Assembly: GCF_026151205.1 (NCBI RefSeq)
Contig: NC_087077.1
Location: 7,679,983-7,743,982 of the forward strand
Length of the DNA: 64,000 bases
Source: Bolinopsis microptera
Taxonomy: Eukaryota > Ctenophora > Tentaculata > Lobata > Bolinopsidae
Reading direction: 5' to 3'
Position numbers and translations under genes: made by a program. The notes beneath the pieces are model-generated. The model ran no database searches and was not told the origin of the DNA. It was given only the letters and a program-made list of their open reading frames with translations. Positions 4,130-58,563 of this stretch are shown here, piece after piece. Each line of letters opens with the position of its first letter. The first letter of the stretch is position 1.

Positions 4130-16985
<12,856 letters not shown>

Positions 16986-25826: not shown

Positions 25827-26453
25827 ATGAAAATCGAGCGCTCAAACAAAATGTGTTTTCGGTGCTACTGTATCATGTTGCGAAACCTTTTACGTGTATA
25901 CAAGTGTTGCTTCCTTCTAGTTTTAAAGATGTTGAAAACACATTGCAGCAGAAGACGATTAGCGCATTTTTTAAAAAGCCTCTACAACCATCTAGTTTCA
26001 AAAATTGCCCAGATACAATCTATTAATCCGGGTGTGCATGTATATGTTTGTCCAACAATTCCTTCTAAACGTGCTGATTTAAATAGAAAGCTTATATACT
26101 TTAACAGTTTGATTCGATGTAGGCTGCTCCCGTCCAATTTTGGTGTCAGTTATGTGGATGGATTTGATGAGTTCTGTGATAGGGATGGTCTCCTTGACCG
26201 CCCTCTCTCTCGCGACCTCAACAAATACCAAAAACCGGACTTCCTTCACCTCAACTGGAGGGGACTAGCAAAGTTAGGTCAATTTATTCGTAACACTGTT
26301 CTTCTCAGGATTAACGGTGGTATCGACAAAAGGAAGAGGAGGTCCACAAGGGTAGACGATAGATCCTACAGGGATGCGACTGCTGGAAGAGAAACTGGTC
26401 CTGTTGTTCCTGCTGCTGCTAGTCAGGGTCACGTGGATGGTTACCAACCATGA
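25827..26453 (+). CDS. CR1-like ORF1, C-terminal half of SGNH esterase domain
   Basis: The first ATG of the open frame is at 25827 (208 aa). The frame is open back to a stop at 25770. From about residue 60 it reads FLKSLYNHLVSKI, then VYVCPTIPSKRADLN, then DFLHLNWRGL, the D-x-x-H block of SGNH/GDSL esterases found in CR1 ORF1 proteins. The N-terminal Gly-Asp-Ser block is not visible, so the enzyme is probably incomplete. The first 50 residues look unrelated and Cys/Arg rich. The stop TGA (26451-26453) overlaps the ORF2 start as ATGA. Confidence 0.7.
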   Translation: MKIERSNKMCFRCYCIMLRNLLRVYKCCFLLVLKMLKTHCSRRRLAHFLKSLYNHLVSKIAQIQSINPGVHVYVCPTIPSKRADLNRKLIYFNSLIRCRLLPSNFGVSYVDGFDEFCDRDGLLDRPLSRDLNKYQKPDFLHLNWRGLAKLGQFIRNTVLLRINGGIDKRKRRSTRVDDRSYRDATAGRETGPVVPAAASQGHVDGYQP

Positions 26454-29400
26454 CTCCCCTCATTAAGGAGGTATGTCCTGTCTGTTCTAAGAACATAGTC
26501 ATCGGCCAAACAATAGTTGAATGTTTTCACTGTGACTGCATAATGCACCATAAATGCTATCGCAAATCAAATCCAAATAGCCAATCTAATGAGTTTTACT
26601 GTACTCGTTGTATCCATTTAGACAAGGTTAAATACAACCCATTTAAACTACTCACTGACAATGACGACGACGACAACAACCTAGACGAATACACAACCAA
26701 AATCTCAAATACTTTAAATGATTGTAACTCATACACTGCATCTGACCTTACAAATATTCTCTGCAACCAAGTAAAGAAACAATCATCTATTCTCTTTCAA
26801 AATATTGATGGAAATAAATCAAATTTTGACAACCTTGCCATTGAAACCTGTAGGTACAAAACAAAATTCTCCGTAATAGCCCTAGCTGAAACCAACACTG
26901 GAAAAGAATTAAGCAATCTATTTCAGCTCGACGGTTATAATAGTTACTATCAGGACACAGCACCTTACAAACAAAAGGGCACTGGAGTAGCCCTTTATGT
27001 TGACGATAAATTAAATGCTACTGTAATTGAGAATATATCACAAGTCACAGAACATCTAGAAATACTTGTCTTATCATTAAGTAACGAAGATCAACCTGTT
27101 AATGTAGGTGTTTTGTATCGTCCACCAAGTGGCTGTATTTCCCAAGCTCTAGTTGAACTTTCTAACCTTCTTGATCACATGCCGAAGTTTAGTTATCTAG
27201 CTGGAGACTTTAATATCGATCTTCATGATAAAGATAACAAAAATGTTCAAAAATATGAAGAAATATTATTCAGTAAAGGATTTTGTCCGTTAATATCTAT
27301 TGTTACCCACGAAAAACCAGGCTGTAAAGCATCCTGCATAGATAACATTATTACTAACGATATTGAGAATGTGATTACTTCAGGCACCCTAAAAGAACGA
27401 ATAACTCATCACTCACCTATTTTTAACACATTTAACTGGAATGTTGAAGTCAACTCTGAAAAAACTTCTTTTAAACAATATTACGACTTCTGTCAATCAA
27501 ATGTTAACGGCTTCCTAGTGGATCTTGAAGATGAGCTTAAAACTAAAACAATCCACAACTTTACTGAATTCCATGACACTTACAAAAACTGCGTCGAAAA
27601 ATCGTTTAAACTAGAGACCCCGAAAACCTCTAAGAGAACTGTTCAGGTTAACCCTTGGATAACTCCCGGTCTCATTTGCTCAATTAATAATCAGCATAAA
27701 CTGTACGAAAATTGGGTTGAGATAAGAAATAGAAAATGTAAACTCGGGGAAACTGATAACAAGGGCGGCATTTGCCAGTGCCCTGAATGCTCACTAAAAC
27801 GTAGTCGCTACCTTATCTACAAAGAATACAGAAAAGTCCTAAAGAAAACACGTCAAACTGTGAAAACAGAATACTTCTCTGGTAAATTTGCTGAAAATAG
27901 CGGTGATAGTAAAAAGACCTGGGAACTAATAAATCGTATAAGAGGTAAACGGCGGCGTGAAATAAAGCCGCTGTTCACCATAGACAACGTTAAGATAACA
28001 AATAGAAGGATCATAGCAAACGAATTCAATAAATATTTTGTATCATTAGCCTCTGACCTAAATACCGCTTACAATGATCTTGGACAAATTAACATAAACA
28101 GTATACCTAGTTTCTATGATTATCTACCGCTTTCAAACACTTCCAGCATTTACATGCATGACTGCACAACAGACGAGGTTAGCAAAATCATATCTGAACT
28201 TAAAAATGGCAAGGCAAGTGACATACCGATTCATGTAATTAAGCAGTCCTCTAAAATAGTTACTCCTTTACTCACTGTACTGTATAACGAATGTATGAAA
28301 GATGGCATATTTCCAGATGACCTTAAAGTTGGAAGGATTAGTCCCATTTACAAGAAAGATAACCAGGAACTCCTTGAAAACTATAGACCTGTATCAACGC
28401 TAGCTGTGTTTGGTAAAATATTTGAAAAGATTATATTCAATAGATTATACAGCTTCTTTCATTCACAGAACTCCTTATATGAAAACCAGTACGGATTCCG
28501 TAAAAATCACTCGACCAGTTATGCCCTAAATTACTCAGTGAACCACGTAGAATCTTGCCTCAAGAAAAAACAACACGTTCTTGGAATATTTATTGATCTT
28601 AGTAAAGCCTTTGATACAATATCACATGAAAAGTTACTGCATAAGTTAGAAAATTATGGAATCCGTGGAAATGCAAATAACCTTATAGCAAGTTACCTGT
28701 CGAACAGATACCAGTATGTCTCGGTATTAGGTGAAGAATCCGAGAAACTTCCAGTAGTCTATGGAGTGCCGCAGGGGAGCTGTCTTGGTCCCTTACTTTT
28801 TATTATTTATATTAATGACATCCGTAACTCATCAATTATAGGAAAGTTTATACTATTTGCCGACGACACTAACATATTTATAGAAGACACATGTGTCAAA
28901 AGACTATACGAAAAAGGAAATGAAGTTCTATCATTTGTGTACAAGTATATGAAACTAAACTTATTACATATTAACATTAAGAAATGTTGTTTTATTCATT
29001 TTAAACCCTCACGGGCCAAAGAGGAAGTAGAAAATGACGAGAACATACTAACTTTAAATAATGTAGTTATTAAAAGAGTTCAAGAAGCTAAATTTCTAGG
29101 CGTTATTATTGACGACCAACTTAACTGGAAATCACATACGCAGTCACTTAACTCAAAACTTAAATGCGAAGTAGGAAAGCTGTGCAGAATACGACACATT
29201 GTCCCAAAGCAGTATTATAAGGATTTATATCATACTCTATTTGAATCACATTTAGGATTTGGAATATCTGTGTGGGGTGGTATTAGTAATAACCGACTTG
29301 AACCTATCTTTAAAACACAGAAAAAGTGTATAAGAATTCTGTTTGGGGAAAGAGAAGCTTACCTAGAGAAGTTTAAAACGTGTGCCCGAACACGACCTGT

Positions 29401-29803
29401 TGATAAGCAAAGACTGGGGGTGGACTTTTACCAAAAAGAACACTCCAAGCCCTTGTTTAAAACCCACAGGTTGTTGACGGTCCACAATCTGTACAAGTAC
29501 ACTTGTCTCTTAGAACTATTCAAAATTAATAAGTTAGAGGAACCATTATCACTGTACTCATCATTTAACAGGTCACCACGACGAGAGGATTATTTCATTA
29601 CATCACAACCATCCTCACAATTCATCTACCAATCATCCTACATGTGGAACAGCTGTCGACAAACATCAAGTAAGATAAGTTTTAATACTCCGACAAACGG
29701 GTTTAAGAATATATTGAAAATTGCCTTACGAGAATTGCAATTCAAGCATGATACACTTGATTGGTGTGAGCTTAATTTTGCCACAAATGAGCTCAAGTTC
29801 TGA
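26450..29803 (+). CDS. CR1-like LINE ORF2: PHD finger, AP endonuclease, reverse transcriptase (1117 aa)
   Basis: An uninterrupted polyprotein for target-primed reverse transcription. The N terminus is a PHD-like C4HC3 finger (CPVC, CFHC, HHKC, CTRC; residues 9-63). The endonuclease follows at about residues 115-330 (LAETNT, VLYRPPSG, AGDFNIDL, ITHHSPIF). RT lies at about 600-900: ENYRPVSTLAVFGKI, NQYGFRKNHST, FIDLSKAFDTI (motif A), GVPQGSCLGPLLF and FADD at 803-806. A C-terminal domain (ILFGEREAYLEKF, HSKPLFKTHRLLTVHNLY) ends the protein. ATG 26450-26452 overlaps the ORF1 stop by 4 nt, suggesting coupled reinitiation. With all RT residues present it may be recently active. Confidence 0.93.
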   Translation: MTPLIKEVCPVCSKNIVIGQTIVECFHCDCIMHHKCYRKSNPNSQSNEFYCTRCIHLDKVKYNPFKLLTDNDDDDNNLDEYTTKISNTLNDCNSYTASDLTNILCNQVKKQSSILFQNIDGNKSNFDNLAIETCRYKTKFSVIALAETNTGKELSNLFQLDGYNSYYQDTAPYKQKGTGVALYVDDKLNATVIENISQVTEHLEILVLSLSNEDQPVNVGVLYRPPSGCISQALVELSNLLDHMPKFSYLAGDFNIDLHDKDNKNVQKYEEILFSKGFCPLISIVTHEKPGCKASCIDNIITNDIENVITSGTLKERITHHSPIFNTFNWNVEVNSEKTSFKQYYDFCQSNVNGFLVDLEDELKTKTIHNFTEFHDTYKNCVEKSFKLETPKTSKRTVQVNPWITPGLICSINNQHKLYENWVEIRNRKCKLGETDNKGGICQCPECSLKRSRYLIYKEYRKVLKKTRQTVKTEYFSGKFAENSGDSKKTWELINRIRGKRRREIKPLFTIDNVKITNRRIIANEFNKYFVSLASDLNTAYNDLGQININSIPSFYDYLPLSNTSSIYMHDCTTDEVSKIISELKNGKASDIPIHVIKQSSKIVTPLLTVLYNECMKDGIFPDDLKVGRISPIYKKDNQELLENYRPVSTLAVFGKIFEKIIFNRLYSFFHSQNSLYENQYGFRKNHSTSYALNYSVNHVESCLKKKQHVLGIFIDLSKAFDTISHEKLLHKLENYGIRGNANNLIASYLSNRYQYVSVLGEESEKLPVVYGVPQGSCLGPLLFIIYINDIRNSSIIGKFILFADDTNIFIEDTCVKRLYEKGNEVLSFVYKYMKLNLLHINIKKCCFIHFKPSRAKEEVENDENILTLNNVVIKRVQEAKFLGVIIDDQLNWKSHTQSLNSKLKCEVGKLCRIRHIVPKQYYKDLYHTLFESHLGFGISVWGGISNNRLEPIFKTQKKCIRILFGEREAYLEKFKTCARTRPVDKQRLGVDFYQKEHSKPLFKTHRLLTVHNLYKYTCLLELFKINKLEEPLSLYSSFNRSPRREDYFITSQPSSQFIYQSSYMWNSCRQTSSKISFNTPTNGFKNILKIALRELQFKHDTLDWCELNFATNELKF

Positions 29804-32235: not shown

Positions 32236-33044
32236 TATATATATGTATATTTTGTGAATTTTTTATCACTTGTTGATCCAAATTTAGAAAGAAAATTATT
32301 CAAACAATATACACATAATATAACAATTACCCTATATAAAAATTCAATATAAAAATTCAATATAAATTCAATACCTACTAAATAAAATTTATAAACACCC
32401 TTTAAGTAGTATAAGTAAGCCAGTTTAAAATTTTGGTACTTTAAAGTTTTATTCCTTGGCTAATAACCCAAGACTATAACAGGTGACCAAGCTCGGTTTG
32501 ACGTATCTGCTAGAGGAGTTTGGACTCAATTTGATAAGACCTTTCTTGACATAAGGGTTTCACACCCCAATTGCTTATCAAACAGGACCTAAACTCTTCA
32601 AGAAGTATACGAAGAGAACGAAAAGGAGAAGAAGGATAAGTACTTGGAGAGAGTGTTGAACGTAGAGAAGGATAGTTTTTAATATTGGTAACATTAATGA
32701 ATTGTAATTGATTGATTTTCGTGCACATACAGAATGAATGGTTAATAATTTAATATATATGTAGACCAAGCTCTGTGCACGGGATGCTTCCTGGAAGAAT
32801 CCAGTTCTTTTAGCGGGGCACCCTACCTAAAGCCAAATTGAGATATAATAATCATATTCCTAGGGAAATAATCAGAAATCGAATACCAATCAAATAATAT
32901 GATATGTAATTGATTGATATGTAATATTTAGGCCTGTGGCCAGTTTTCACAACGTAGAGAAGGCCACTTTCACCCCAGCCGTATTTCTCTCAACTGGAGG
33001 CATGTCCAAAGAATGTAAGCGGTTTCTAAATTGAGTGGCAGACC
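32236..33044. other. Non-genic AT-rich stretch
   Basis: No exon or repeat recognised. Confidence 0.5.
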
Positions 33045-33403
33045 TTTTTTTTTTTTATCTAGACACTTATTTTACTTCGATGTATTCCAACAGCCACAAT
33101 GTTACACAAGTGCAACCAGCCAATTACAGGAAGCCGAAGGATCTTTTTTGGCCAGTGACGGTTAAGGTAGTGTGTACCATACTTTCTTCGTCCGAGACTT
33201 TGCTGCAATGTGCAGCTCCTCATTTAACCCTCACACCGGATTTCTCGAGTATTCGGCTGAGTAGACCGGGGGGCTGCATAGACCACTCATGATCCTTAGC
33301 TGAACGTCGACGACGCTCACCCCACGACCAGGCAGTCAGTGGGTTTCGAACTCGCAACCTAACGATTGTAAGACAGGCGTTCTAACCAACTGCGCTACCT
33401 GGC
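33045..33403 (-). mobile_element. tRNA-derived SINE with poly(A) tail
   Basis: On the minus strand the first 77 nt (33403-33327) are tRNA-like. The acceptor stem GCCAGG pairs CCTGGT, box A is TAGCGCAGTTGG (33397-33386), and box B is GAGTTCGAAACCC (33353-33341). The anticodon stem is degenerate, so it is not a functional tRNA gene. A roughly 270-nt body ends in A12 (T-run 33045-33056). I see no clear target duplication. Confidence 0.8.
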
Positions 33404-33447
33404 TGTTGGAAAGGAAAAGAAAAGAGAGGTATTGCGATGTGGTAAGA

Positions 33448-33730
33448 CATGTAAGGACAAGAATAATATTCGCTATGTTAAGAACCGCACTCATAGCTCT
33501 ACGAGGGTACAGAAGAAAAAAAATGGACAGCAAATATGAGACTCCACTATCAGTAGTCTCTTATAACCTCATCCCTGCCCCTATGATGGAGTAGATGTGT
33601 ATATATCTAATTGTTGATATTTCATATTATATAATATTGGTAGCAGTGGACAATTTCCGTTACCTCTGTATTGTGCTCTGCCAATTGCAACACTTGAATT
33701 ACTTTATTGTATATAATACTGTTTGACATT
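33448..33730 (+). repeat. Dispersed repeat, copy B, with conserved coding-like C terminus
   Basis: Counterpart of 17728-18015. The frame reads IIFAMLRTALIALRGYR, then YETPLS, then NLIPAPMME and a TAG stop, with a shared AT-rich 3' part. It starts 44 bp beyond the SINE. Differences between copies include both silent and replacement changes. Confidence 0.75.
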
Positions 33731-33810
33731 TTTTATTCCTTGGCAATTTTTTTATTTCTTTAATACTGGTCAAAAAGCCATAAAAGCATTAAACATGTTT
33801 CAACTGAATA

Positions 33811-34099
33811 CAGTGGCGTAACGTTGCCTGTTGGCGCCCCCCTGCCGAAAAGGCGCCCCCCTGTTGGCGCCCCCTCCCCTTTTGGTGCCCCTCCCTAAAA
33901 TTGAGCAAATTAGGTGATTTTAGAGGATATGCCGGTAAAAATCTCTAAAAAAGTGTGTATCTAGAGCAAAACGCGCAGTTTTGCTAGTACTTTATTTAAG
34001 TTTTCGAAATTGTCCCACATTCAAACGACGATTTGGCACCCCCCCAAGACGGCGCCCCCCTGCACAGCGGGGTCAGCGGGGCCCTTCGTTACGCCACTG
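33811..34099. mobile_element. hAT-type MITE, copy 3
   Basis: 289 bp with CAGTGGCGTAACG / CGTTACGCCACTG termini and a perfect 8-bp duplication ACTGAATA (33803-33810 and 34100-34107). It closely matches copy 1 throughout. Confidence 0.92.
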
Positions 34100-34230
34100 A
34101 CTGAATATCTCTTGCAGTGTTTGTGGAAAGTCCTATTAAAGTTGATGTTGTAGTGTCAGTAAAATGGTTACCGATATGTATATACCCACATATTGATTCT
34201 CATGATATTGTGTATAACATCTGCATCTTT

Positions 34231-34500
34231 CTATAGCTGACGATGTGAGGGTACTTGTGCGATTCCAGCATGTTTAATTATTTGATGGCTTGATATAAAA
34301 ATGGTGTTAATGAATCCTGTAAATTACGTATTATATGCTCTTGTTAGCTTCACCTTGAATCCTTTCTATAGCTGACGATGTGAGGGTACTTGTGCGATTC
34401 CATCATGTTTAATCATTTGATGGCTTGATATAAAAATGGTGTTAATGAATCCTGTAAATTACGTATTATATGCTCTTGTTAGCTTCACCTTGAATCCTTT
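34231..34500. repeat. 135-bp tandem duplication
   Basis: Two nearly identical 135-bp units starting CTATAGCTGACGATG at 34231 and 34366, differing at a few bases. No coding potential is evident. Confidence 0.9.
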
Positions 34501-36907
34501 AACAATCTCAATATTACTTTGTAGGTGGTTCTGATAGGTTGTTTGTTTCGCAAGCTTTCATGTAACTTGTGTCAATCATCTTTTGATGGTATGGTGAATA
34601 TCTTTCGATTAATTGCTGTATCTTTTTTGTTTATTTATGTATTTATTAGAAGGGTGAGAATCCCTGCCACGTTTTTGGTCAGTTTCGCCGGGGCTCATGT
34701 CTTTCCTCGAGAGAGCATTAGTGTCTACAGAAAAACTGACAAATCCTAGCGAAGTCCAATCCGAACCACATCTTCCATTAGAGGTGGTGCTGGGTCAGCT
34801 GGTTACTGAACGGATTGGCCTGGAGAATGGCATAGTCCTGTTACTCTCAAGTTAACCATAGAGGGGAACAGGCGCTGTTCGCTCACGGCTGGTTCTTGGA
34901 GCCAACACCCTCAGCCCCTCAGAAGTGGGAGCACTGTCGTTGGTGGCTCACCCAGATAACAGACAGTGTCTCTCCTTTTTTCTTCTTGGACTTGCATTGT
35001 TGCTGGTGAGTCAGCCAGTAGCAATGCAGCATCTCACTCACTCAATCACCTCAGCAGTTCGGTCCCTTTTCTGTTTGATTACTAGTCTCACCTGGTTCTT
35101 GACCTGTCGCCCTCAGACCTACAGAGGTGGGTGCACTGTCGGTGGCCTGTCACCCAGGTTGTCGGTGGTATCTCTCCCTCTGCCTCCCCTTTGGACATGC
35201 ATTGTTGCTGGTGAGTCAGCTGGCAGCAGTGTACCATACTATTGCGTGTTTACTAATCCCCTCTTAGCTTCCAGGCTAAACTAAAATTATAAACCAACAG
35301 AAGCAGGATAGAAGCAAGAAATCATCAGTAGCCCCTCAACTTAACGAAGACTGATATCAACCGCTCTGGTACAAGCAACTCTGATAAAGTACGACACTGC
35401 TGCTTCTCTGGGAAGTCAGCACCAACAGAAATGGGGACACTCTCTGATATGAGTGCTGGAATTCTCAGCCGTTTTACTCTACAGGCTAAGTTTCTTGTTA
35501 TAATTCTATTGCTCTGTTCTTTCATTTGTATTCTGTCTCACTCTACTGCATATTGTAGATCGTCAGCATTCATAGAACCAGGGTCTCAGTTACAGTCCTT
35601 CAGTTTGTTGACTAGACACACTTTTTGCATCATCTTTCGGTTTTTGACGGCGTTTAGAACACATCTTGTTTTCTCGATCGTTACTTGCCTCCGTATTGGC
35701 TGCTAAACTAAAATTATAAACTAACATTCGTTCCACCCCCTTGTGTGTATACTAACACCCCTAGATTCCCAGGAACAGGCATAAATATCTACAGAAATCA
35801 AAGCCAAACAGACAGACAGCTACTCAGCCACAATGCAGGACAACAGATACTGCTCTGAACCAAGGATAAGTCTGATGGATACAGCTCACGTCTCCCTAGA
35901 CATTCGCACAGATTACAAGAATGCCAACATCAGACATCACGTCTCTTATTAAGACAAAGCTCAACTCTCTATCCAAGTTCCTGAAATCAGAGTTGTCTAA
36001 CTGAGATTCGCAGTCAGACATGCATTATACCCCCCTCGACCAACCCATCTACTAATCCGTGTCTACAGGCAAGAAATTGATCTCGTCATTTGTAATATAA
36101 TATGAAATATTATATACCTATTGAAATTCTCATCCTCCACATCATACAAAAAAGAACGGCCCATGGCCATACACCACATATCAAAGAGAAAGGCCTCCGG
36201 CCAGACATATCAGACCTAACATGATCTATTTTCCTTAAAAGCCCATGTTTATATAAAGTTTTAGCGTGTAAAATTGATTCACTTTACTTACTTGTTTATA
36301 AATTTTACCTCGAACCATGCTTTCACAGAATTAAAATATTACCACACGACAGGGCGACTGTTTTCCAAAACTGGTTACATTCTTCCCTCAAGGCGCAGCT
36401 CCTACACCTGGTAAATTCCACTCTAATAGCACAACCTCTCAAACAGACTCACCGAAGTAATCTTCAGCCATCAAATGCGAAGGGACTATAGCACCGCTGT
36501 CAAACCTGATCATGTTACAAGGCATGACTTTTCTGCCACTACTTCATCATTATAGATTAGTGATTACTTAGTGTGTAGATGAAACGATATGAGTGTAGCA
36601 CACACTGGCTTATCAATGAATGATTGATTCATCCTATCAGCGTTATCTTGATTCGAATTGAGATTGCTATATTAAATTTTTCCTTTATTTTACGTAACGC
36701 GCGAACGCCATTTGAGCACAGTATGTGCTAATAGTCTCGCTGTCAATCCTTTAATACGTTTTGCGCGCTAGCTACTCTGGTAGCGCGCATGGCGGGTAAT
36801 TTTATTATCTATTGTGTCAACTTTTTATTCAGTTTTATTCATTTAAACGATGTTAATCATTTGAAACGACTTTACTAGAATTTGTCAACGAAGAAGAACT
36901 CTAAATT
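34501..36907. other. Non-genic stretch with a diverged internal duplication
   Basis: Segments near 34909-35030 and 35111-35232 share GCACTGTCG and GCATTGTTGCTGGTGAGTC at a spacing of about 200-215 bp. A second pair of ACTAAAATTATAAA boxes is at 35278 and 35706. It may be an old retroelement, but no domain is recognisable. From 35730 to 36907 I see nothing. Confidence 0.5.
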
Positions 36908-37125
36908 GTTACCACAGCAACCATTCAATGTTGCCATAGAAACTACACACTCTTAACATAGCAACCACACACGGTTACCGTAGCAACTCCAAATCACTAC
37001 CTAGCAACTAAACACTGCTACCATAATAACTACATACTGATACTATAGCAACTACACACTGTTACCATAGCAACTACACACTGATACCATAGCAACTACA
37101 CACTGTTACCATGGCTACTACACAC
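36908..37125. repeat. 22-bp tandem array of X-box-like palindromes, left part
   Basis: Units of about 22 bp centred on GTTACCATAGCAAC or variants: 36908, 36930, 36952, 36974, 37061, 37083 and 37105, with degenerate ones between. Each matches or nearly matches the RFX X-box consensus GTNRCC-N(0-3)-RGYAAC. The array is interrupted at 37126 by a LINE and resumes at 39470. Confidence 0.85.
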
Positions 37126-39467
37126 TTTTTTTTTTTTTTTTTTTTTTTTAAGAGAGGCTGGGCCAAGATAGCCCACGAGAGGATAGCATTGAGATGCTCT
37201 GCCTACCTCTGGGTTGTGGCAACCTTGGGGAAGGTTGCCGGTGAAATCAGAGTGATTGGTGGAGGATGGTGTAAGATGATATATGAGTCAAAATGATACG
37301 CTTAAATGCCAGCTGGGTTTGGAAAAGTAAAACGAGACGAGACAGCATATGAGCTAATACTTTAAGTCACCCCGGTCTGATCCAGCTCTTCCGGCACAAT
37401 TAAGCGTTTGGTGCGGTTTGCGAAATTGACAATTGTGGTGATGTGTTGGTTGTCGAATATGTCATTGACAGAGAGGTAGTAGTCCTGGAAATATTGACCT
37501 CTAATTTGGGCAATAGCTGGACACTGTCCAAGGAAGTGTGAGACAGTTTCCTCTCCATCGCCGCACATAGGACAAGCACTGGTGTTTGATTTGCAAATGG
37601 TGTGAAGGTGTTTGTTTAAGCCGCAGTGACCCGTGATGAGGTGAACTGCAGTTCTGTAATCTTGTCTGTTTTTGCTGAGTGTAGTGTTGAGGTTTTTGAT
37701 GATTTTGGCATGCTTGTGGCCGAGTGTCAGTTTGGTGTGTCTGGGACCGTCAGTTAACCAAGTTTCCTGATTCAGTCTGTTGACTTTGTTGTCGATTTGA
37801 CGCTTGATGTAGGATTGTGGAATTGGACACTTCAAAGTGGATTCACTGGTTGTACCAAGCTTGGCCAGCTCATCTGCTTTTTCGTTCCCCCACAATCCGA
37901 TGTGTGCTGCAATCCATCGTATCTCTAGCGTGTTGTTGGATCCGAGTGCATTAAGAGAGTCGTAACAGTCTCTTGTAGTTCTACTTCGCGTTGAAAGCGC
38001 AGAGATAGCTTGTATAGATGAGAGACTGTCAGACCATATGATGATATGTGTGTTGGTATAGGTAGAGAGATATTTGCAAGCTTCAATGATGGCGGTGAGC
38101 TCTGTTTGGTAAACAGTGCAATAATCAGGGAGCTTGAATGATCTTTCTTCAAGGGTGGTGTTATTGTTGTCAGTTGTGATGATATAGCCAGCCCCGCATC
38201 CTGAGTCTGTGAGTGACCCGTCAGTGTAGCAGGTGATCGTTTCACTGGTAATGTTGTCGATGGTGTTTTGAAGTGAATTTCTATATTCAGTGGTATCGGC
38301 TCCAGGAGTTGTGACGGTGAAGTGCCGTCCCAGCATCATGGTTGGTGTTGTTAGGTCTCTCGTTGCTCTAGGTGGGATAATGAGGTCTGCCATGAATTGT
38401 TTGTTGATAGTGGTATGATTTTTGATAGTTCCCTTCCTGAAAGCGATAGTTTCAAGAGTGAGGCTGCCATAAGCTTGTAGCCTGGCCGCACCCTTTGCTG
38501 CTTCGCCTTGCAGGAACAGTATGATGTCAGAAGTGTCGGTGAGGTGATTCAATGCGATAAAAGGTGTGCTTGGCATGGCACCAGACATCATTCTGAGTGC
38601 CAATGCCTGAACACGTTTGAGTTTCTTCGCGTTATAGTCCGTTTGAGTGGCCCTGATCCATATACTACAGCAGTAGGATAGGATTGGACGGATGACAGCC
38701 GTGTACATCCATTTGCATGTTTTGGGGCTCATACCCCATGTGGGGCCGACAGCTCTTCGACATTGCATGAGGGATGCCGTGGCTTTTTTGGTGGTGTTGA
38801 TGATATGTTCATTGAAGTTGAGTTTGCTGTCCAAGGTCACTCCTAGAAATTTAGCAGACTTGGAAAGACCTATAATGTTGTTGCCAACTGTTATAATAGG
38901 TCTTAGAGTCCACTTACTATTCCAGGTAAACATGACTATCTGAGTTTTAAGGGCGCTAATAGATAGCTCTTTGGTTCTGCACCAATTTTCTATCGTTTTA
39001 ATAGTTTTGCATGTTCGGTCCCAGATGATGTCTAAATCATCCCCTTCCGCTAGAGACAACAGATCATCCGCAAAGGCTTGCAGGTAACCCGGGATGTCTT
39101 TTGCGGTAAAGGAAAGGAGATCGTCGACTACCAGGTTCCAGAGAAAAGGAGAGAGAATGCCTCCTTGGGGGCAACCTCGCCTGATCCGTACCCTTCTCGA
39201 CTTATCCTTATGATTTAGTGTGATGAATCGATTGGTTACCATGTTGATGATCCACTGTGCTGTAGCCAAGTCCACTTTCGTAGCCTTGACTGCTTCAGAG
39301 ATAGCCTTGAACGAGACATTATCGAAGGCGCCCTCTATATCTAGAAAGACACCTAGGACATATCCTTTCTTGGCTATTCTGCGCTCAATGGTGTGAGTAA
39401 CTTTATGAAGTGCCGCTTCTGTGGAGCAGCCCTTCTTAAAGCCGAATTGTCGTTTGTTGATATCATT
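37126..39467 (-). mobile_element. 5'-truncated RNase H-bearing LINE inserted in the X-box array
   Basis: Minus-strand insertion with a poly(A) tail (T24 at 37126-37149), a 212-nt 3' UTR and an ORF2 truncated at 39467 within RT motif 2. Array sequence lies on both sides. CTACACAC occurs at both junctions and may be the target duplication, though the tandem context makes that ambiguous. Confidence 0.92.
37362..39467 (-). pseudogene. LINE ORF2 (I/R1-like clade): RT plus RNase H, 5' truncated
   Basis: Open for about 702 codons from the truncation point. RT: RQFGFKKGCSTEAAL, FLDIEGAFDNV (motif A), RRGCPQGGILSPFLWNLV and FADDLLSL. RNase H follows: YTDGS, YQTELTAI, IWSDSLSS, HIGLWGNEKADELA, with the Asp-Glu-Asp-Asp set complete. 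A C-terminal knuckle (CPMCGDGEETVSHFLGQC) is present. Endonuclease and RT motif 1 are lost by truncation, so it cannot move on its own although the remaining frame is undamaged, which implies a young insertion. The RNase H points to the I-related lineages. Confidence 0.9.
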
Positions 39468-39469
39468 AG

Positions 39470-39556
39470 CTACACACTGTTACCATAGCAACTACACACT
39501 GTTACCATAGCAACTACACACTGTTACCATAGTAACCACACACCGTTACCAGGAAC
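39470..39556. repeat. 22-bp X-box-like array, right part
   Basis: Units start at 39479, 39501, 39523 and 39545 (exact 22-bp spacing). The first three contain GTTACCATAGCAAC or GTTACCATAGTAAC, full X-box matches; the last is shortened. This is the continuation of 36908-37125 across the LINE. Confidence 0.9.
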
Positions 39557-39636
39557 GAGAGCGAGGGTCGACAAGGGGCTATTGCGATGCAATCTGGACG
39601 AGAGTCCAGGCTGGCTCCCTAAGTTCCAACCTCTCG
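39556..39636. other. Structured three-way-junction motif, copy 1
   Basis: Outer stem CGAGAG (39556-39561) with CTCTCG (39631-39636). Basal stem GGGGC (39575-39579) with GCTCC (39614-39618). Hairpin A ATTGC-GAT-GCAAT (39581-39593). Hairpin B CTGGAC-GAGA-GTCCAG (39594-39609). No known RNA family recognised. As DNA it is a T-shaped palindrome. Confidence 0.7.
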
Positions 39637-39742
39637 GTACTGCAAACGATACATTTTCTAATCCTGATCACCCATATCCAAGTTACAGTTATACAATAAA
39701 ATTACAATCTCATCGTACTCACATCTCTTGAGTTAAGCGCAA

Positions 39743-39807
39743 AGCGTCACTATAGGACCTTCGCGATGCGAACCAGACACATAGTCTGGACTGGTACCTC
39801 AGACGCT
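39743..39807. other. Structured three-way-junction motif, copy 2
   Basis: Outer stem AGCGTC (39743-39748) with GACGCT (39802-39807). Basal stem AGGACC (39754-39759) with GGTACCT (39793-39799, one bulged A). Hairpin A TTCGC-GAT-GCGAA (39760-39772). Hairpin B CCAGAC-ACATA-GTCTGG (39773-39789). Arms differ from copy 1, but the changes are compensated. Confidence 0.7.
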
Positions 39808-39885
39808 AACGTGAAACTTACAGAGTATATAACAACTTACTCTAACGTGAAACTTACAGAGTATATAGGATATAACAACTTACTC
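39806..39885. repeat. 36-bp tandem duplication
   Basis: CTAACGTGAAACTTACAG starts at 39806 and again at 39842. The second copy has a small GGATATA insertion. It lies between structured motif copies 2 and 3. Confidence 0.85.
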
Positions 39886-39966
39886 GGGCGTAAGGAGTCG
39901 ATACGGAGCTATTGCGATGCAATCCAGGCAAGTGTCTGGACTGGCTCCTAAAACTCCAAACGCTCG
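39885..39966. other. Structured three-way-junction motif, copy 3
   Basis: Outer stem CGGGCG (39885-39890) with CGCTCG (39961-39966). Second outer stem GGAGT (39894-39898) with ACTCC (39953-39957). Basal stem GGAGC (39905-39909) with GCTCC (39944-39948). Hairpin A ATTGC-GAT-GCAAT (39911-39923). Hairpin B CCAGGC-AAGT-GTCTGG (39924-39939). Confidence 0.7.
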
Positions 39967-40005
39967 GGCGAGCGGCATGACAACTCTGATAAAAAAAAAA
40001 AAAAA

Positions 40006-40701
40006 CTTGAACCTCTGTTCAAAGCACAGAAAATGTGTGCCCGCATAATGTTTGGAGATAAAGAAGCATACTTGGATAAATTTAAAACTAGTGCACGATG
40101 CAGACCCTACGGGGAGCAAATCCTGGGCAAGGAATTCTACAGAAAGGAGCATACAAAACCCCTCTTCAACACTCATGAAATCATGAATGTGCATAATCTG
40201 TACTTCTACCATTGTATTAATGACATCTTCAAGGTCTTGAAATATAGAACCCCTATATCACTATACTCCCTCTTTGAAACATCTGGCAGACTTGGCAAAG
40301 AGACACTAATTCTCACACCTAAACCATCAGACAGCTACATATACAGAGCAGGGACAATATGGAATACAGTACGACAAAATCTCATGCTAACTACATTCAC
40401 CTGTTATAAGCCCAATCACCTCAAATCATCCATAAGAATCACCATCACTCACACTCAAAAGGAAGGAGAACCAAATGACTGGAACTTAGCTTTAAACAGC
40501 GTTCGACAAAATTCAAAAACTTTAAAATTGACCTTGCCTAGATTACTTAAGCTTGAAAAAGCGGTAATATCTCAGCAAAATATAACTTGCAGCAGCCCCA
40601 TACCTTGTCATGAACATAATATCGAAACTACCTCTGTGATCACATCTTTCTCTGGGTGCAAAATGAATATTATATATATAATAGGTTTATTAGTTTTATA
40701 G
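40006..40701 (+). pseudogene. 5'-truncated CR1-like ORF2 C-terminal fragment
   Basis: Follows an A15 run and begins in frame at about 40009 (EPLFKAQKM). It is homologous to the last 200 or so residues of the ORF2 at 26450-29803: FGDKEAYLDKFK, YRKEHTKPLFNTHEIMNVHNLY, SLYSLFE, WNTVRQN. It diverges in most positions and has a longer C terminus. It contains no RT motifs, so it is a dead-on-arrival copy of a related subfamily. Confidence 0.85.
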
Positions 40702-41253
40702 AAATTTAAAAGTTCTATAGAAATTTATTATATAAGGATTATAAACATTTTATTTGTGTGTTTTGTGTTATGCATTTTTATACCGATTTTAGAAGAGATT
40801 TTTATAGAATGTTAGAAGTGCAGTAGGGTCAGTTTCAGACGAATTAAGCATAAATGACATCACTGCCATGTCTGAAGTGGTTTGTAAATGGGCCATTATA
40901 AGCCCCAAGCGTTTTGGTCCCTCATTCCTGCCACTCAGCATTGCCTACTGTAAATTAGAAATTTTTCTAAGATAATAGAGAAACTGACCTTGTCTCACTA
41001 AATTCAACCACTTACCATAATAAAAATACTAACAACCAAATAAAGTTTTTAAATAATTATATACAATCACCAAAAATATTTCCTCAAGTTTACTTCTAGC
41101 TAACTAGTTCGTGGTTTAAGCTCTTATTTTATTTATGATTAAAGGAATGTAAAATAAAACTTTTCGTTTCATTGGTCATTGATTCTTTACAAATAATTAT
41201 CTTACCAAACATACAGTACGCAAAACGAACGTAGATTTCAATTCTTATATAGC
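40702..41253. other. Non-genic AT-rich stretch
   Basis: Probably starts with the 3' UTR of the CR1-like fragment. Nothing else recognised. Confidence 0.5.
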
Positions 41254-41580
41254 GAAATAGCCGAAGTGCGTGGAGGCCGGGGAGAGGGGCTAGCTCCGGC
41301 GCGGCGCGCGCGCCGGGATAGCACCCCAACACGTCAACGCGCAGCAGAGTAGTGGGGTCGGCCACACTACCGAATACACGAGAAGCCAACCCGGGATTTA
41401 TTACCCGCACGGCTATATTATCATGCGCAGTTGAAACCTGGGGGCTCGCCGACCAGGTTCACCGGGTGGAAACTGGAGGCATATATGACTCCCATATCTG
41501 AAAGCAGGTTGGGGGCACTACGGAAAGCTTAGAAGCTCCCGTCACCTACTAACTAACTACTAACTATGTATTTATTATAA
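41254..41580. other. GC-rich island of unknown nature ending in (ACTA)n
   Basis: About 325 bp, much richer in GC than its surroundings, including a GCGGCGCGCGCGCC stretch. It ends in ACTAACTAACTACTAAC. The sharp composition change and simple tail suggest an inserted element such as a SINE or LINE end, but no box A/B or frame was identified. Confidence 0.45.
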
Positions 41581-41896
41581 TCATGTGTCTGCTGAAAATC
41601 TTTAAACTTGTGATTAATAGATTTTACAAATGTTTTACATACATTTTTCTCACTTTTTATTATTTGAAAATTCAATTAATTATTATATATATAAATCAAG
41701 CGTTACATTTCAGCCATGCAAAATTACAATGACATATTTTGATATACTAATTGATAAATGGTACTGCAATATAAGTTGCTTAATGTTTGGCCGGATGGCA
41801 ACTAACTAAAAAATAAAAATAAACTTGATTACATAATAATTAATTCGGCTGAACCAACACATAGCTAGAGCCACATTAATGTGGGGCCCTCTAGCT
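41581..41896. other. Non-genic AT-rich stretch
   Basis: Nothing recognised. Confidence 0.4.
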
Positions 41897-42170
41897 CAGT
41901 GGCGTAATGTTGCATGTTGGTGCCTCCCCCCGCCGAATAAGCACCCCCTTATTGGCGCCCCCTCCCCTTTTAGCGCCCCTCCCTAAAATTAGACAAATAA
42001 GGTGATCCTAGAGGATACGCTGGAAAAATCTCTAAACAAATGTGTTTCTAGATCAAAACGCGCAGTTTTGCTAGTACTGCTGTTAAGTTTTTCAAAATTG
42101 TCCTGCATTCAAATAATGATTTGGTGCAATGTTGCCCACCCCCTGGCCCTCCCGCTCAGTGGGGTCAGCT
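41897..42170. mobile_element. hAT-type MITE, copy 4, 3' truncated
   Basis: Starts CAGTGGCGTAATG and follows copies 1 and 3 to GGGGTCAGC near 42168, then loses the family sequence before the expected CGTTACGCCACTG end. More diverged than the others, so older. Confidence 0.8.
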
Positions 42171-42439
42171 GCAGTCTGGCAGTGTTGAGTATCATAAGTA
42201 TTTCCCTAACCTTCTTAAATCTTGTTGTTCAGGTATGACATATTTGGAGCTCCGATGGAATGCATATGTGGTTGGAACTTGATGTGATATTCAGTCATAA
42301 CTTGAGGATACTAAGTAACAAGTTATAATATCTGATATCAACAGAATGGGAGAACTGCTCTGTCATGTTGAGTTACTGTCAGACTGTAAACTATGTAGTT
42401 CTTTTGACTACTGAATCCTCAAGAAATAGCATACTTCTT

Positions 42440-42757
42440 TACTAAGCATACTTCTTTACTAAGCAGCAATTGGTTAGAAACCATTCAAATGTAGTGGGGA
42501 TGAAAATTGAAGCAGCAATTGGAGACTGGACTGAATGTTATAAATTTCAAGAAATTTATTTCTTTACTGAGCAGCAAGTGGTTAGAAACCATTCAAATGT
42601 AGTGGGGATGAAAATTGAAGCAGCAATTGGAGACTGGACTGAATGTTATAAATTTCAAGAAATTTATTTCTTTACTGAGCAGCAATTGGTTAGAAACCAT
42701 TCAAATGTAGTGGGGATGGAAATTGAAGCAGCAATTGGAGACTGGACTGAATTCATC
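42440..42757 (+). repeat. 108-bp tandem repeat, about 2.8 copies, frame-preserving
   Basis: GGTTAGAAACCATTCAAATG recurs at 42472, 42580 and 42688 (exact 108-bp period, 36 codons). One frame stays open through all copies (units read VRNHSNVVGMKIEAAIGDW). A diverged half unit is at 42806. The period being a multiple of three explains the open frame. No start context or homology supports a gene. Confidence 0.85.
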
Positions 42758-43345
42758 TCATGCTAGCTATCAGTAGTATTTCAGTGTAACTATGTTCTAC
42801 ACTGTTAGAAACCATACAAATGCAGTGGGGATGAAAAGTGATGTGATTTGATTTTCAGAGACTATCCCCATTATCTTCTTGGAATTTTCATTCTTTGTTA
42901 AGCAGCAACATCTTAAGACAATGAAAAGTTTCACTCTAAAGATGATTACTATGTTTATGTACTCTATTTTCAATTTCAACTATTCATTGTTATTTTCATT
43001 GCTGTGTTGAAAATGTGTTATATTAAAATTGTCATTGATTTCAAATTTTAATGCATTCTTTGCTTTGGAAAACTTTGCGGACTACTGATGACTAAGGTTA
43101 TGCTAAATTAAACATCACATAATTTGGTGACAAAGCGCCGCTAACTTTACCAATCTTTAAACTGACTTTAATCTTAACCAAATTTGTGTCATAACTCCCT
43201 CCTGCTCTGCTATTACTAATCCCACACATATTGCAATTTATGAACCTAAATTTATATGAGCGAGTCTATTTAAATCGCTATTCTGTAACTTTATATCCAC
43301 TAACACATACTGTTAAATTATAGCTTGCTTGTACCCCTACGTGTT
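42758..43345. other. Region upstream of eIF3b
   Basis: AT-rich. It should contain the eIF3b promoter and 5' UTR, but no core element is convincing. Confidence 0.45.
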
Positions 43346-46300
43346 ATGGTGGCTTTATGCCTCGATGAAGAGGAAGTCCCCAACTATCATGAGGATGACC
43401 AGTATGAAGCACAAAAACTTGTCGATGAAATGGACGATGACAGTAAGTTTAATGAATTGTATCAAATGACTTGTACTATATCTGTACATAGATAATTTCA
43501 ACTTTTAGCCAAGAATATGAAATACCGAAATAAGAATTTGTGATAAATGTCGAAGGATTTATTTAGTTCAACTTAGATTTACGTTTATTAGGCAAAGTGC
43601 TTGCGCTCATTAAAACATTTCTTTCAGCTTTGATCAGTGATATTCTAGATAACCGACCTCACTCCAGTGAAACGGTAAAGATTTTTATCATATTTTTATC
43701 GTATTTTTATCTCCTGATGAAAAGGGGTTTAGTCGAAATTATTGATTTTTTATTTGAAATGGTTCCTTTTCACTGATAAAAATTGCAAAAAATTTATAAT
43801 TTCAGATAGAAAATGTTATTATAGTAGATAACATTCCTGTGACGGATTCCTCGAAACTGGTGAAACTCACGAATGTCCTTCTGAAGATCTTTAGTAAATG
43901 TGGCAAAGTGGAAACTCATCACATACCCCTGGATGAGAACTCGAAAACTAAAGGGTATGTTCTCCTCATCACTTATTTATTGCTATTGTTAATCTTGATA
44001 TTAATAATAGTTGAGCATAAACATTTGTTGGAAAAAGTGATATTTCGGATAAAGGTATGTGCAGTGGAATCTGTGAGACTGTTAACTAGTATTGTTCCAA
44101 GGCAGTTAGGCAGAGTTATTACAACACAATAATATACTAGAGCTTAACAATAAGATTGATTTGTACTTTATTCAAAACAATTTGGAAAGAAATTTTGGCC
44201 ATTTAATTTCGTATTGCAAATTATTGGGGGGGGGGGGGGGGGGGGGCATCCAGCATCAACCTCATAAATACCTATTATTCGGTATTCCCTCCGATTTCAA
44301 AATAGGTATAGGTATTTATGTATATTTATGGTTCTTTAAAGGTTTTGTTGTTTTTCAGTATTTTTCCCACTTTTAACATAATATAAGGGGGGGGGGGGGG
44401 GGGGGGGGGGGCCAACCATATTAAAGTATATTAAAGTATATCCCCGGGTCAAAATCGGAAAAAATCCTACATTTTAATATACTTTAATATACCTACAATT
44501 AGAAGATTTATATTCTTCGTTAAGATTTACATGATGAACTATATTTTTCACTCAGATTCGCAAGATAAGCCTGTTTTAGGACTAATACATGAATTTCCAT
44601 CCAGATTGGTCAAAAATTGGCTGAGCTATGAGCTTTAAAAAATATGCCCATATTTGGGCATACGCTTTTGTCCAAATTCGCTTTTGCCCAAATTCGATAA
44701 AATTTCAATACTTTTTAATGAGACTAACTCTATGTGAAAGATATAACTCAGTGTTTGTTGGATATAGTGGATACTAAGTAAAAAGACCTCCATGAACAAA
44801 ATTGGGAAAATTGCACATAATATCTCGGTTCAGAATACTAGCCAAAATTACTTCATTAAAATTGAATTAACTCCATCAGTTTTCAATATTTTTTCAAGAA
44901 CTTTTTGGAATCGATTAAGGATTGCATTTCAAGCTTATTTTGGGCAACAATTTTTGATGTAGGCCTCCAAGGAGATAGGGATATATTAAAGTATATTAAA
45001 GTATATTAAAGTATATTAAAGTATATCCCCGGGTCAAAATCGGGAAAAATCCTACATTTTAATATACTTTAATATGGTTGGCCCCCCCCCCCCCCCCCCA
45101 ATATAATATTCAATTCTATTCATAGTGTTAGCTGTTTTAAAGTGTTTTTACTGCACGAGGGGGTTGATATCAAGTTTTAAAACCAATTTATTGGGGTTGG
45201 GAAAAATTGGATTTTTTGCCTTTGTGTACCTTAAACTTGAGTTGTATAGGGTTTTTAATTTGATGCAAAGAACCTCGGATTTCGTCTCGACTCTCAACTA
45301 AACTTTGGTGAGCAAATCAAGCAACTTAAAACATCGTGTTTTCTGAAACTAAGAGACCTTGCTAAGATGAAAACATTCCTCACAACCAAACAGATGGGAA
45401 CACTGACTCAAGCAATTGTAATCTCATCGCTTGACTACTGCAATGCGCTTTACTATGGTTGTAGTCAAGCCTCAATTACGCAGCTGCAGAACATTCAGAA
45501 CCGAGCATGCCGTCTGGTTTTTGGATTAAAGAAGAGAGACTCAGTCGAAGAGAAGCTCAAATCCCTTCATTGGCTCAAGGTGAAGGAAAGGATTGAGTTT
45601 AAGTTATGTTTACTGATTTTCAAAGCAGTCAATGGTGTTGCTCCTGCATATCTGTGTGATCTAGTAACATTTGTTAGTTCGAGTAGCAGAAGAACTTCCT
45701 CCTTACACCTACCTGTCGGATCTACAAGATCGCACCCAAGAGCGTTTCAGACTGTTGCTCCGAAAATCTGGAACCAACTACCAATTGAAATTAAGACTTG
45801 TTCTGATGTTGATCTGTTCAAAACATTATTAAAAACTCACCTGTTTAAGAAAAGTTATGGCATGAGCGATTAATTGACAATATAACTTTATGTTATTTGC
45901 TTAAACTGTTTAGGATGCAACCTAATGTCATGATCTTTTTGAACTTATTAGCAATTAGACTGTTAGCTCGCTTCATAAGCATGTCATCTTCGTTCCAAAA
46001 CTTTTTATGTCCTATTCATACACTCCTTGATAGTTATCTTGATCTAGTATCTTTGTTTCACACAATAGAGCATAAGTTTTGTGGTTTATCCACTGGGCTT
46101 AGAGTTTGTGTTTAAGCTACCAAATTTTATTATTATTATTATTATATGAACAGTTCAAACTATCAAAAGGTTGCTTATATAGAAGTTTCTGAACATTTTG
46201 AACAACAATTAAAAATATTTCCAAAATAAATTCAATGTAATCGAAAATTTTAAAGGTAAAATCTTGTCATGAGATTTTCACCTAAAACTTAAAAAAATCA

Positions 46301-49300
46301 ATTTTGCTCACAATATTCTGAAACGTAAAATACCTATAAATAGGGTTAGGCCGTTAGGGTTAGGCCGTTAGGGTTAGGCCGTCAGGGTTAGGCCGTTAGG
46401 GTTAGGCCGTTAGGGTTAGGCCGTTGTCGGGGGGTCCTTAGCCAAGCCATCTTGTCCGGACATATTTATTTCGACCATATTCTATACGTTCATGTGAATT
46501 TAAGAAGTACTGGGTACATGTTTCTACCGTAATGGGTATTGCCAAGGGGCAACATTTTCACAGCAAATATACAGCGTAATTTCTTTCCGAATATTTGTGC
46601 AAACTTGTGCAAACCCTGTCCAATGGAAATGTGTTCTCAAATAATAACAAGAATTGCGCCATTACACTCTCTGCTTATCTCATGCTGATTGCTGCCACTA
46701 GGTAGTCCTGCAATTAGTCTATGGTCCCTATTATTACCGGTTAAGCCACTCATTAATAAGTTCTACCAAAACTGATTAATAAAAAAATCCATTTTTCAGG
46801 TTTATGTTTATCGTGTACAGAAATGGCCAGGAAGCAACGAATGCTATCTCGTCTTGTAACGGTTACAAACTGGACAAAAACCATTGCTTTGCCGTCAACA
46901 GACTCTCCGACTTTGAACAGTGAGTGAAAACGATTCTTATTTTATCAAAATACTGTAAATTTTTATTAGATTATTCTTGTTGTTGTCGTGATCAAAATCT
47001 CTTAAATATTATCTAGTTTAAACTCAACGTTTTCATGTAACTGAAAAATAAAAGGTCATAATATTAATATTCATATTCTAGGTTTTCAATCAAAAATTCA
47101 ACCGTATATAATATGTAGTACCCTGGTGCAAAGTTAGTGTACAAATTATTAAATTGAAAACTGCATTGAAACCGCAAAAAAGATTAGTATTTTATCAAAA
47201 GAATGAAACTAGACTGCAAACAAAGGAATGCATACAATATAATTTATATGCGAAACTAAGATATACTATGTAGCAGGAATGCATACAATGAATTTAAAGA
47301 AATGCACGGTGAAACGGTAAGCAGGCACTGCAATGTGTGTTGGTGTGTTTGTTGAGTGAAGCGTAAAAATGGCAGGAATTTACCAATGAGTGTGAAATTT
47401 ACCAATGAGTGTGAAATTTACCAATGAACGTGAAATTTCTATAGATAAGAGCTGGAATTTGAAGCCAATTTGAAGCCATGACCCTTCTCGCCTATGATAT
47501 CTCTTAAAAGTATGCTGGTATCTATAACGAACTAATCTTATTTCCAGCTGCATGAGTATTCCTGACAAGTGGGAAGATCCAAAACCAGAACCATACAAAC
47601 CACAAGCTAACCTGAAATCCTGGATGACTGATGCCGAGTGTTTTGATCAGTTTGCCATTGTTCATGGCAAGAACAGGAACACTGCTGTACACAGTTGTGG
47701 GCCCAGCCAGTCCTTCACTGTTCAACAGCGAGAGGTAGGTTCACATTCCAACCAGTTCTACTCCCTGATCCTCGTAATTCCGCCACGTTCTGTTGTGTCT
47801 GGGAGACAAAACTGCGCAATGTTTTATTATTTGTTTATTTTATGTTGTTGTGATCATACTGTAGCTAATTCAATAATCCTCCACTTTCAGGGTTGGACCG
47901 AATCACACGTGAAGTTTTCTCCAAAAGGATCGTATCTTGCAACATGTCACAAACAAGGTATTGCCTTGTGGGGAGGTCCAGAGTTCAGCAAAGTTGGACG
48001 ATTCAACCACCCAAATGTTACATACTTCCAATTCTCTCCATGTGAAAGGTATGTTTGGTGAACTATTTTACCGCTCTAGTTCTGTTTATGACATCTTGAC
48101 CTTGATAATTTACGCACAAATTTTTTCTGTTTTAAGATTAAAATCAAATTATTTCTCAATGAAATCTAGACAAGCAAACAACCGAATTTGCGTGCAGGTA
48201 TTTTGTGACGTACAGTAAGACCTCACTGTCTCCTGAGGATCCGCAGAACCTTATCATCTGGGAGACGAGATCCTGTCTTAACAAACGAGCTTTCTCTCTT
48301 CCCGTTCTGAACTACTGGCCCTATTTCAAGTTAGTGCATATTTTATCAATATAATATGACCGTCAAAAAGTAGTAATTAATTAATTGACGATATTGATAA
48401 GAGACGTACTGAAAGTCGGTTAAAATAGTGGTCACAACGTGTTTGTTTGTTTGCGTCACGCGCTTATACTTTGAATCATAAAGATGACCCTCAAACTTCG
48501 CGCTTTGAACAAATTTTACCGCGCGCGGCACGACTTATTGCTTCATTATACAACGCTTCGTTGCGAAATTGTACAAAGATGTATGAAAAACAATCATTAT
48601 TTAAAACTCGGGCACTAACCGTCACTCTTTCCTTATCCTATTCGTAAACGCACGCGGCAGAGTTGTGTATCTTGTCTGGACAGTATGTGGTTTACGCCAT
48701 ATGGATACTTTGACCTCTTTAACCCATTTAGTGCTACCGCGAACCAGTTCAGGGGTGAGGGGCGCAGATTAACCTATCTCGAAATGAGGCCTTTTCGGTT
48801 TAAACTCTTGGTATTTTTTTAGAGTGAGACTACCTCTGCAAAAGTTTTGTAATTAATAACTTTTAACAAAGAAGTTCGTCAAGCATGGAACCAATGGTTC
48901 CTGAGTGTTCTTGTGTTGGACGAAATAATGTAATCTGTATTCAATACTGTGCAACCTATGATCGCAGTAATCCACCATTCCTCCTTACAAAGCTTTTTTG
49001 CAGGTGGAGTCACGATGGACAGTACTTTGCTACCATCACGGGGGATAATCTGTCGATCTATTCAACACCCTCAATGAAACTGTTGGATAACAAGAAGATA
49101 TCTGTACAAAATATCAGGTATTTAAAATATCTTGTTAATGTATCTAACATTGCTTTTCTTCTCTAAATTCGGGTACAAGTGTAGTTAGCTGCATGACTTC
49201 GTAAGTTTTTTTTTTATAATTTTCTTATTTCCATCCACTTCTCAGAGATTTCAGCTGGTGCCCATGTGAGAACTGGATAGCCTACTGGCAGAGTGAGAAT

Positions 49301-58056: not shown

Positions 58057-58563
58057 CTGCGAAAGGGGCTATTAATTAATTGACTGTTCAAAGTGCTTAA
58101 ATTATCAATTATTTAGTCGGCATTGAACAAATTCTTTGCTTTTAACGGCTCGACTCACGTCCGAATCTATATCCTAATTTTATCATGGGAAATATCTGAG
58201 TATGCTTGTGTAAGAGCCGGCACGATCTAGTGACAGAATATCTAGATACCGTAGCACTGGTTTAGATATTGTAATTACCATCACTGGCCACACCCATATT
58301 GACGCCATCAGGCATGTAACTTTGAACTTATTACAACACTACAAATCTATTATATCTATTGAGGGAGGGACCTTCGACATTGTCCATCAAACAATAAGGA
58401 TCACTTGGTAAGCTCTGTAATGGAGGCTGATATAAAAGATATATAACGTGGCAAAATAATAACTGAGTTACAAATTAAATTAAATTAGGCAATTGATTGA
58501 TAAAGGTTTTGAGTTCTTTTCACATCTTCTGCTCAGCTGTTTATATAACGTCCTATGTCTGAA

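Follow-up and report, generated by a model that had tools for sequence, protein, structure and literature searches.

A non-coding retroelement in the genome of the ctenophore Bolinopsis microptera carries on its sense strand three copies of a motif whose stems stay paired while both partners change. We consider this motif a cis-acting structured RNA module of the sense transcript, probably a protein-docking site present in three copies, and give this reading about even chances. The window analyzed comprised 64,000 nucleotides (NC_087077.1, forward strand, positions 7,679,983 to 7,743,982); coordinates refer to this window unless preceded by the number of another locus (L009 and so on).

Fold and position of the motif

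The motif folds as a rod of stacked stems (P0, P1 and P2, with small internal loops between them) that carries two neighboring hairpins, A and B, as its cap. Folding and a covariance model placed its copies as follows:

39555-39636, plus strand: motif copy 1; P0 39556-39561/39631-39636, P1 39565-39568/39624-39627 (weak), P2 39575-39579/39614-39618, A 39581-39593, B 39594-39609
39729-39816, plus strand: motif copy 2; P0 39738-39740/39811-39813 (weak), P1 39744-39748/39802-39806, P2 39755-39759/39793-39798 with one bulged base, A 39760-39772, B 39773-39789
39884-39968, plus strand: motif copy 3; P0 39884-39891/39960-39967, P1 39894-39898/39953-39957, P2 39905-39909/39944-39948, A 39911-39923, B 39924-39939

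Hairpin A has a stem of 5 bp with a GAT loop (ATTGC/GCAAT in copies 1 and 3, TTCGC/GCGAA in copy 2), and hairpin B a stem of 6 bp (CTGGAC/GTCCAG, CCAGAC/GTCTGG and CCAGGC/GTCTGG in copies 1 to 3). Inspection of the sequence found these stems and the GAT loops exactly as a preliminary description had claimed, and its three copies in the same orientation, each with an outer stem, a basal stem and two adjacent hairpins, were confirmed, all on the plus strand. Hairpin A begins at 39581, 39760 and 39911; the spacing of 151 bp given earlier was therefore correct, and that of 170 bp has to be replaced by 179 bp. The outer stems are indeed unlike in sequence among the copies and each of them pairs, with the reservation that their strands were picked for pairing.

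Folding of single copies yielded, relative to dinucleotide shuffles, z = -2.1, -2.8 and -4.4 for copies 1 to 3 on the plus strand and z = -2.1, -2.5 and -5.9 on the minus strand. When the entire 439-nt region was folded, the structure of minimum energy had z = -3.1; copies 2 and 3 folded therein as described, and copy 1 retained hairpins A and B with a different outer pairing (GGAAC with GUUCC).

A search of the window with the covariance model, whose training set included these three copies, returned the three motif places as sole matches up to E = 10. A structural descriptor, drawn up after the motif was known (GAT loop, A ≥5 bp, B ≥6, P2 and P1 ≥4), gave 33 matches in the window and loci L009-L043, of which 32 lay in element copies, as compared to 0-2 per resample in ten first-order resamples; in the window it caught copies 1 and 3 and missed copy 2, which has the bulge in P2. 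The remaining match (L043:2447) lies outside the element, is AT-rich and looks like chance. With a looser descriptor allowing any three-base loop, many unrelated matches on both strands appeared among the matches listed. The tip GCGATGC was identical in 10 of 12 aligned rows drawn from all slots and subfamilies; loop B was not conserved among the aligned rows.

The carrier element was copied through RNA

Borders of the carrier element were determined by comparing window positions 33001-44000 with 20 further loci of this genome by BLAST. The element consists of three pieces summing to 3391 bp, and BLAST across the loci identified the stretches between them as later inserts, namely two LINE fragments:

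34647-37129, plus strand: 5' piece of the non-coding retroelement, which takes in the first portion of the 22-bp array; common to other genome copies
36907-37129, plus strand: 22-bp tandem array, part before the first insert (repeat detected at 36907-37126)
37130-39469, minus strand: foreign insert, LINE fragment with reverse transcriptase and RNase H, which splits the array (locus comparison and Pfam domains)
39470-39551, plus strand: 22-bp tandem array, part after the insert (repeat detection)
39470-39990, plus strand: middle piece of the retroelement, bearing the three motifs (locus comparison)
39991-41179, plus strand: foreign insert, 3' part of a LINE (locus comparison; second copy at L015:2689-3861)
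41180-41566, plus strand: 3' piece of the retroelement, terminating in ACTA/CTA-type repeats (locus comparison)
41501-41521, plus strand: 3'-end block AAAGCAGGTTGGGGGCACTAC, common to a sister family (pattern search)

The 22-bp array, with units GTTACCATAGCAAC that we take to resemble RFX X-box sites, is a single array inside the element, split by the first LINE insert. An ORF of the insert at 39991-41179 showed 43% identity over 160 amino acids to the C-terminus of the reverse transcriptase-bearing ORF at 26450-29803; taken alone, this insert gave no Pfam match. Pfam matches were likewise absent from the four ORFs of at least 80 amino acids that overlap element pieces (119, 91, 110 and 93 amino acids, searched as unspliced frames), of which those of 110 and 93 amino acids extend across insert borders.

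Direct repeats combined with a simple-repeat tail are the mark of target-primed reverse transcription. The window copy is flanked by the direct repeat TATGTATTTATTA, and target-site duplications measured 10-15 bp in six of the seven copies tested and 7 bp in the seventh. The element was thus copied through RNA and is classified as a LINE-mobilized, non-autonomous, non-coding retroelement; tail and target-site duplications together indicate that the plus strand, which holds all three motifs, is the sense strand of this RNA. The 3'-end block is presumably the end recognized by the reverse transcriptase. Its pattern had 50 matches in the genome and none in the control, and the partner bearing the reverse transcriptase was not among the loci fetched. 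A search for the autonomous partner LINE via the 5' head (40 of 120 candidates scored), via the 3' end and in L040, with the ORFs of L043 left out, did not find it either.

Near the 5' end of the element, locus cross-matches showed a stretch of about 150 bp repeated directly (34882-35032 and 35087-35237, roughly 73% identical). Elsewhere, the window contains a perfect (CA)340 tract (9980-10659), a 28-bp tandem array of 67.5 copies (58559-60448) and two ORFs which presumably resemble exons of a VCP-type AAA ATPase (1770-2330) and of eIF3B (47552-48061).

The 5' head of 410-437 nt (34647-35083; L029:101-539; L030:101-511) is common to at least three types of non-coding element with different bodies and tails, and at least 43 stretches matched it (40 of 120 candidates scored). 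L029, the one member read of a sister element, has in common with the carrier the first 437 nt at 96% identity and the 3' block; the covariance model found no motif in it at E ≤ 5, and its ends showed no direct repeat. L030, likewise the one member read, agrees with the carrier in the first 410 bases only, ends in a poly(A) run and has an 11-bp direct repeat. Since L029 has like 5' and 3' ends and lacks the motif, the motif is not needed for mobilization as such.

The motif acts more probably as RNA than as DNA

A G-U combination is a pair in RNA of the strand in question and a mismatch in DNA or in RNA of the opposite strand. Among 808 cells read on the plus strand, 56 were G-U and 16 were A-C, and eight of the latter belonged to a single column, with a shift in copy 2. 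This excess points to RNA of the sense strand; folding energies do not separate the two strands. The preliminary description had proposed selection on either an RNA or a T-shaped DNA palindrome, for example a replication or transposon terminus. Judged from the G-U excess and from the location of the motif inside a retrotransposed element, RNA is favored over the DNA palindrome, and a DNA terminus is disfavored. A DNA-level palindrome serving as replication origin or transposon terminus could draw on the ability of the stems to pair in DNA too, and on the adjoining X-box-like array. It is nevertheless barely credible, because the motifs are internal to an element with a tail and target-site duplications and because G-U is kept more often than A-C.

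Pairing is kept while the sequence changes

Covariation was analyzed in 61 model matches, corresponding to 42 distinct rows. In this set, the alignment of which was fitted to the structure and leans its way, and whose related rows are not independent, 92.8% of the cells were paired as compared to 22-45% with partners slid, and 93 cells were changed on both sides as compared to 30.5 ± 3.9 in shuffles. Twelve hand-chosen rows, restricted to the two hairpins and aligned without reference to structure, showed both-side change in 7 of 11 pairs as compared to 3.1 in shuffles, and none of 500 shuffles reached 7. Weaker measures gave smaller differences: pairs changed on both sides numbered 10 versus 8.0 in the 42-row set (20 of 500 shuffles reached 10) and 8 versus 5.9 in a separate count (34 of 500 reached 8), and the number of pair types was not above shuffles in any of three counts. 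In a swap test with five types, for which strands had been picked for pairing and the bulged base of copy 2 omitted, 133 of 134 cells were paired in their own combination; when 3' strands were exchanged, the paired fraction was 0.44 for P0, 0.52 for P1, 0.79 for P2, 0.82 for A and 0.88 for B.

The best single case is slot 1 of L024, at the place of motif 1, in which all five helices are changed and the folding is retained (A = ACCGC/GCGGT, B = CCAAGC/GCTTGG, P0 = TTCTGA/TCAGAA). Identity of L024 to the window was 35/79 in motif 1, 68/97 in the spacer and 67/72 in motif 2. The 3' part of this slot-1 variant is also retained in L025. Compensatory changes, most strikingly those in L024, support the predicted stems, and the selection on structure proposed earlier is supported by the both-side changes among the 42 distinct and the 12 hand-chosen rows.

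Mismatch among nine young copies was 0.009, 0.040 and 0.020 in motifs 1 to 3 and 0.051 and 0.004 in the two spacers; thus, motif sites are not uniformly slower-evolving than spacers in these copies. This finding, together with the youth and likeness of most copies, would agree with a motif devoid of present function, that is, with old tandem duplications that agree by inheritance. This reading is opposed by the both-side changes seen across slots and in L024, and we regard it as unlikely.

The same changes are consistent with a further interpretation, which we put forward tentatively as possible and no more: the motif may represent a new structural family of RNAs, namely a T-shaped module that is exchangeable, has a conserved GCGATGC tip and occupies three slots of the long non-coding retroelement. 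What is selected would be the fold itself, as a packaging or RNP signal by which an RNA lacking coding capacity captures a protein of a LINE or of the host. One slot would then be taken, in one subfamily, by a module sharing the fold but largely unlike in sequence.

Copies of the motif are confined to one element family as found

A DNA search with positions 39540-39980 matched at least 28 stretches, which we grouped into the window and 22 other loci. Three near-full-length motif matches were found in 13 of the 21 copies read (window and 20 loci); among these 13 is L023, in which an insert separates motif 1 from motif 2. Three motif matches, one of them partial, were also found in each of L019 and L021, and an insert splits the first motif of L020. 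A pattern for the cap matched the genome 48 times and its reversed control 0 times; 46 of these matches lay in element copies, and the covariance model gave the two outside no more than 4.7 bits. All 37 genome matches of a second sequence pattern (control 0) lay in element copies. Both patterns were derived from known copies and are blind to strongly diverged ones. Further copies of the motif, to be sought according to the preliminary description, thus exist, and all those found sit in a single element family.

If the motif were a duplicated copy of a structured host RNA, kept as a mimic, the sameness of the GCGATGC tip across slots and subfamilies would be readily understood. We think this improbable, as both patterns, within their reach toward diverged copies, placed the motif in the element family and Rfam offered no match.

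The spacer between motifs 2 and 3 (39816-39886) contains extra sequence common to L009 and L010 and absent in the other 12 aligned copies, which looks like a local duplication. L022 differs from other copies by many small insertions and deletions.

Known RNA families

Families of exoribonuclease-resistant RNAs (xrRNAs) are contained in Rfam. A search of the whole window against Rfam at gathering score gave 0 matches, and none was obtained in the motif region at E ≤ 10, the ribozyme/hammerhead-core and xrRNA families included, in agreement with the earlier failure to match the motif to a known family. Weak matches were obtained at 41175-41580 (one), at L024:4800-5200 (one, E 2.7, antisense to motif 2) and at L032 (five, best E 0.098, outside the motif); two more at 34600-37130 were taken as chance.

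A phage search gave no match. Three exact matches of a 20-base pattern in viral contigs were rejected, each reaching only 9.2 bits (E 0.88) with the model. A single match in prokaryote genomes (L047) corresponded to a partial model match of 19.6 bits (E 0.00048, positions 27-66 of 86); it was taken as chance, because the locus had been fetched by that same word and holds the hairpin-A word alone, followed by a small palindrome. The literature searched contained no description of motif or element, as far as its listings and passages show. The motif is filed as an unassigned RNA structure and its carrier as a non-autonomous LINE-type element.

The spacing of 151-179 bp and the stem-rich core bring to mind a new self-cleaving ribozyme which would yield unit-length or circular RNA as in retrozymes, and hammerhead retrozymes occur in animals according to PMC7229834. 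Such an activity nonetheless finds no support here and is very unlikely: no ribozyme family matched in Rfam, and the 13 copies that carry all three motifs, being products of RNA, imply uncut templates. Moreover, four copies have their start in or next to a motif, and the starting points vary: they lie within hairpin A of slot 1 in L025, at the 5' margin of motif 2 in L026, and on the 3' side of motif 3 in L033 and L041.

Proposed role of the motif

According to the protein-docking reading, each copy would fold in vivo into the P0-P1-P2 rod capped by hairpins A and B, and the GCGATGC tip or the junction may constitute a docking site for a protein that could be encoded by the host or by a LINE. 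The docked protein would aid RNP assembly, export or stabilization of the element RNA, and three copies would raise avidity. Several observations count against this reading: the sister element L029 has no motif, motif sites are not uniformly slowed relative to spacers, some covariation measures are weak, copy 1 has an alternative outer pairing and the minus strand folds about as well.

Its nearest rival is a structural block, in which the motif would protect or move the RNA (exonuclease block, nuclear export, stability) and act like a viral xrRNA, a CTE or an ENE without being one. Three-way junctions do follow one another in the 3' portion of a long non-coding RNA, and in two of ten loci fetched for the 3' end alone (L033 and L041) the match starts on the 3' side of motif 3, at positions corresponding to 39951 and 39965, as though a firm structure had halted reverse transcription. 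The match starts further 3' in the remaining eight loci, and all ten are starts of BLAST matches rather than proven 5' ends. Also, the motifs of the window have no Rfam match up to E = 10, loop B varies, and no U-rich loop of the ENE type was seen by eye. We regard this alternative as doubtful.

Non-autonomous retroelements are usually understood via the 3' end that the LINE enzyme recognizes. If a module under selection for its structure recurs in another part of such an RNA, this would point to a second signal by which the parasitic RNA acquires its partners. The module also provides a ready covariance model with which other genomes can be searched.

Comparison with known systems

Viral xrRNAs form three-way junctions in tandem in the 3' region. 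The motif resembles them in this arrangement, but differs by the missing Rfam match and by its unconserved loop B. SINE/LINE pairs, in which non-autonomous elements are mobilized by LINEs, are described in PMC3747384. The carrier is like such elements in having no recognized ORF, target-site duplications, a simple-repeat tail and a 3'-end block common to families; it is distinguished by its size of about 3.4 kb, its 5' head, three structured modules and a partner LINE not found in the loci fetched. With the metazoan non-LTR retrozymes, which carry type I hammerheads, the element shares (PMC7229834) the non-autonomous nature and the recurrence of a structured motif at intervals on the order of 150-450 bp, whereas here there is no hammerhead and the three copies lie in one long interspersed element instead of tandem monomers.
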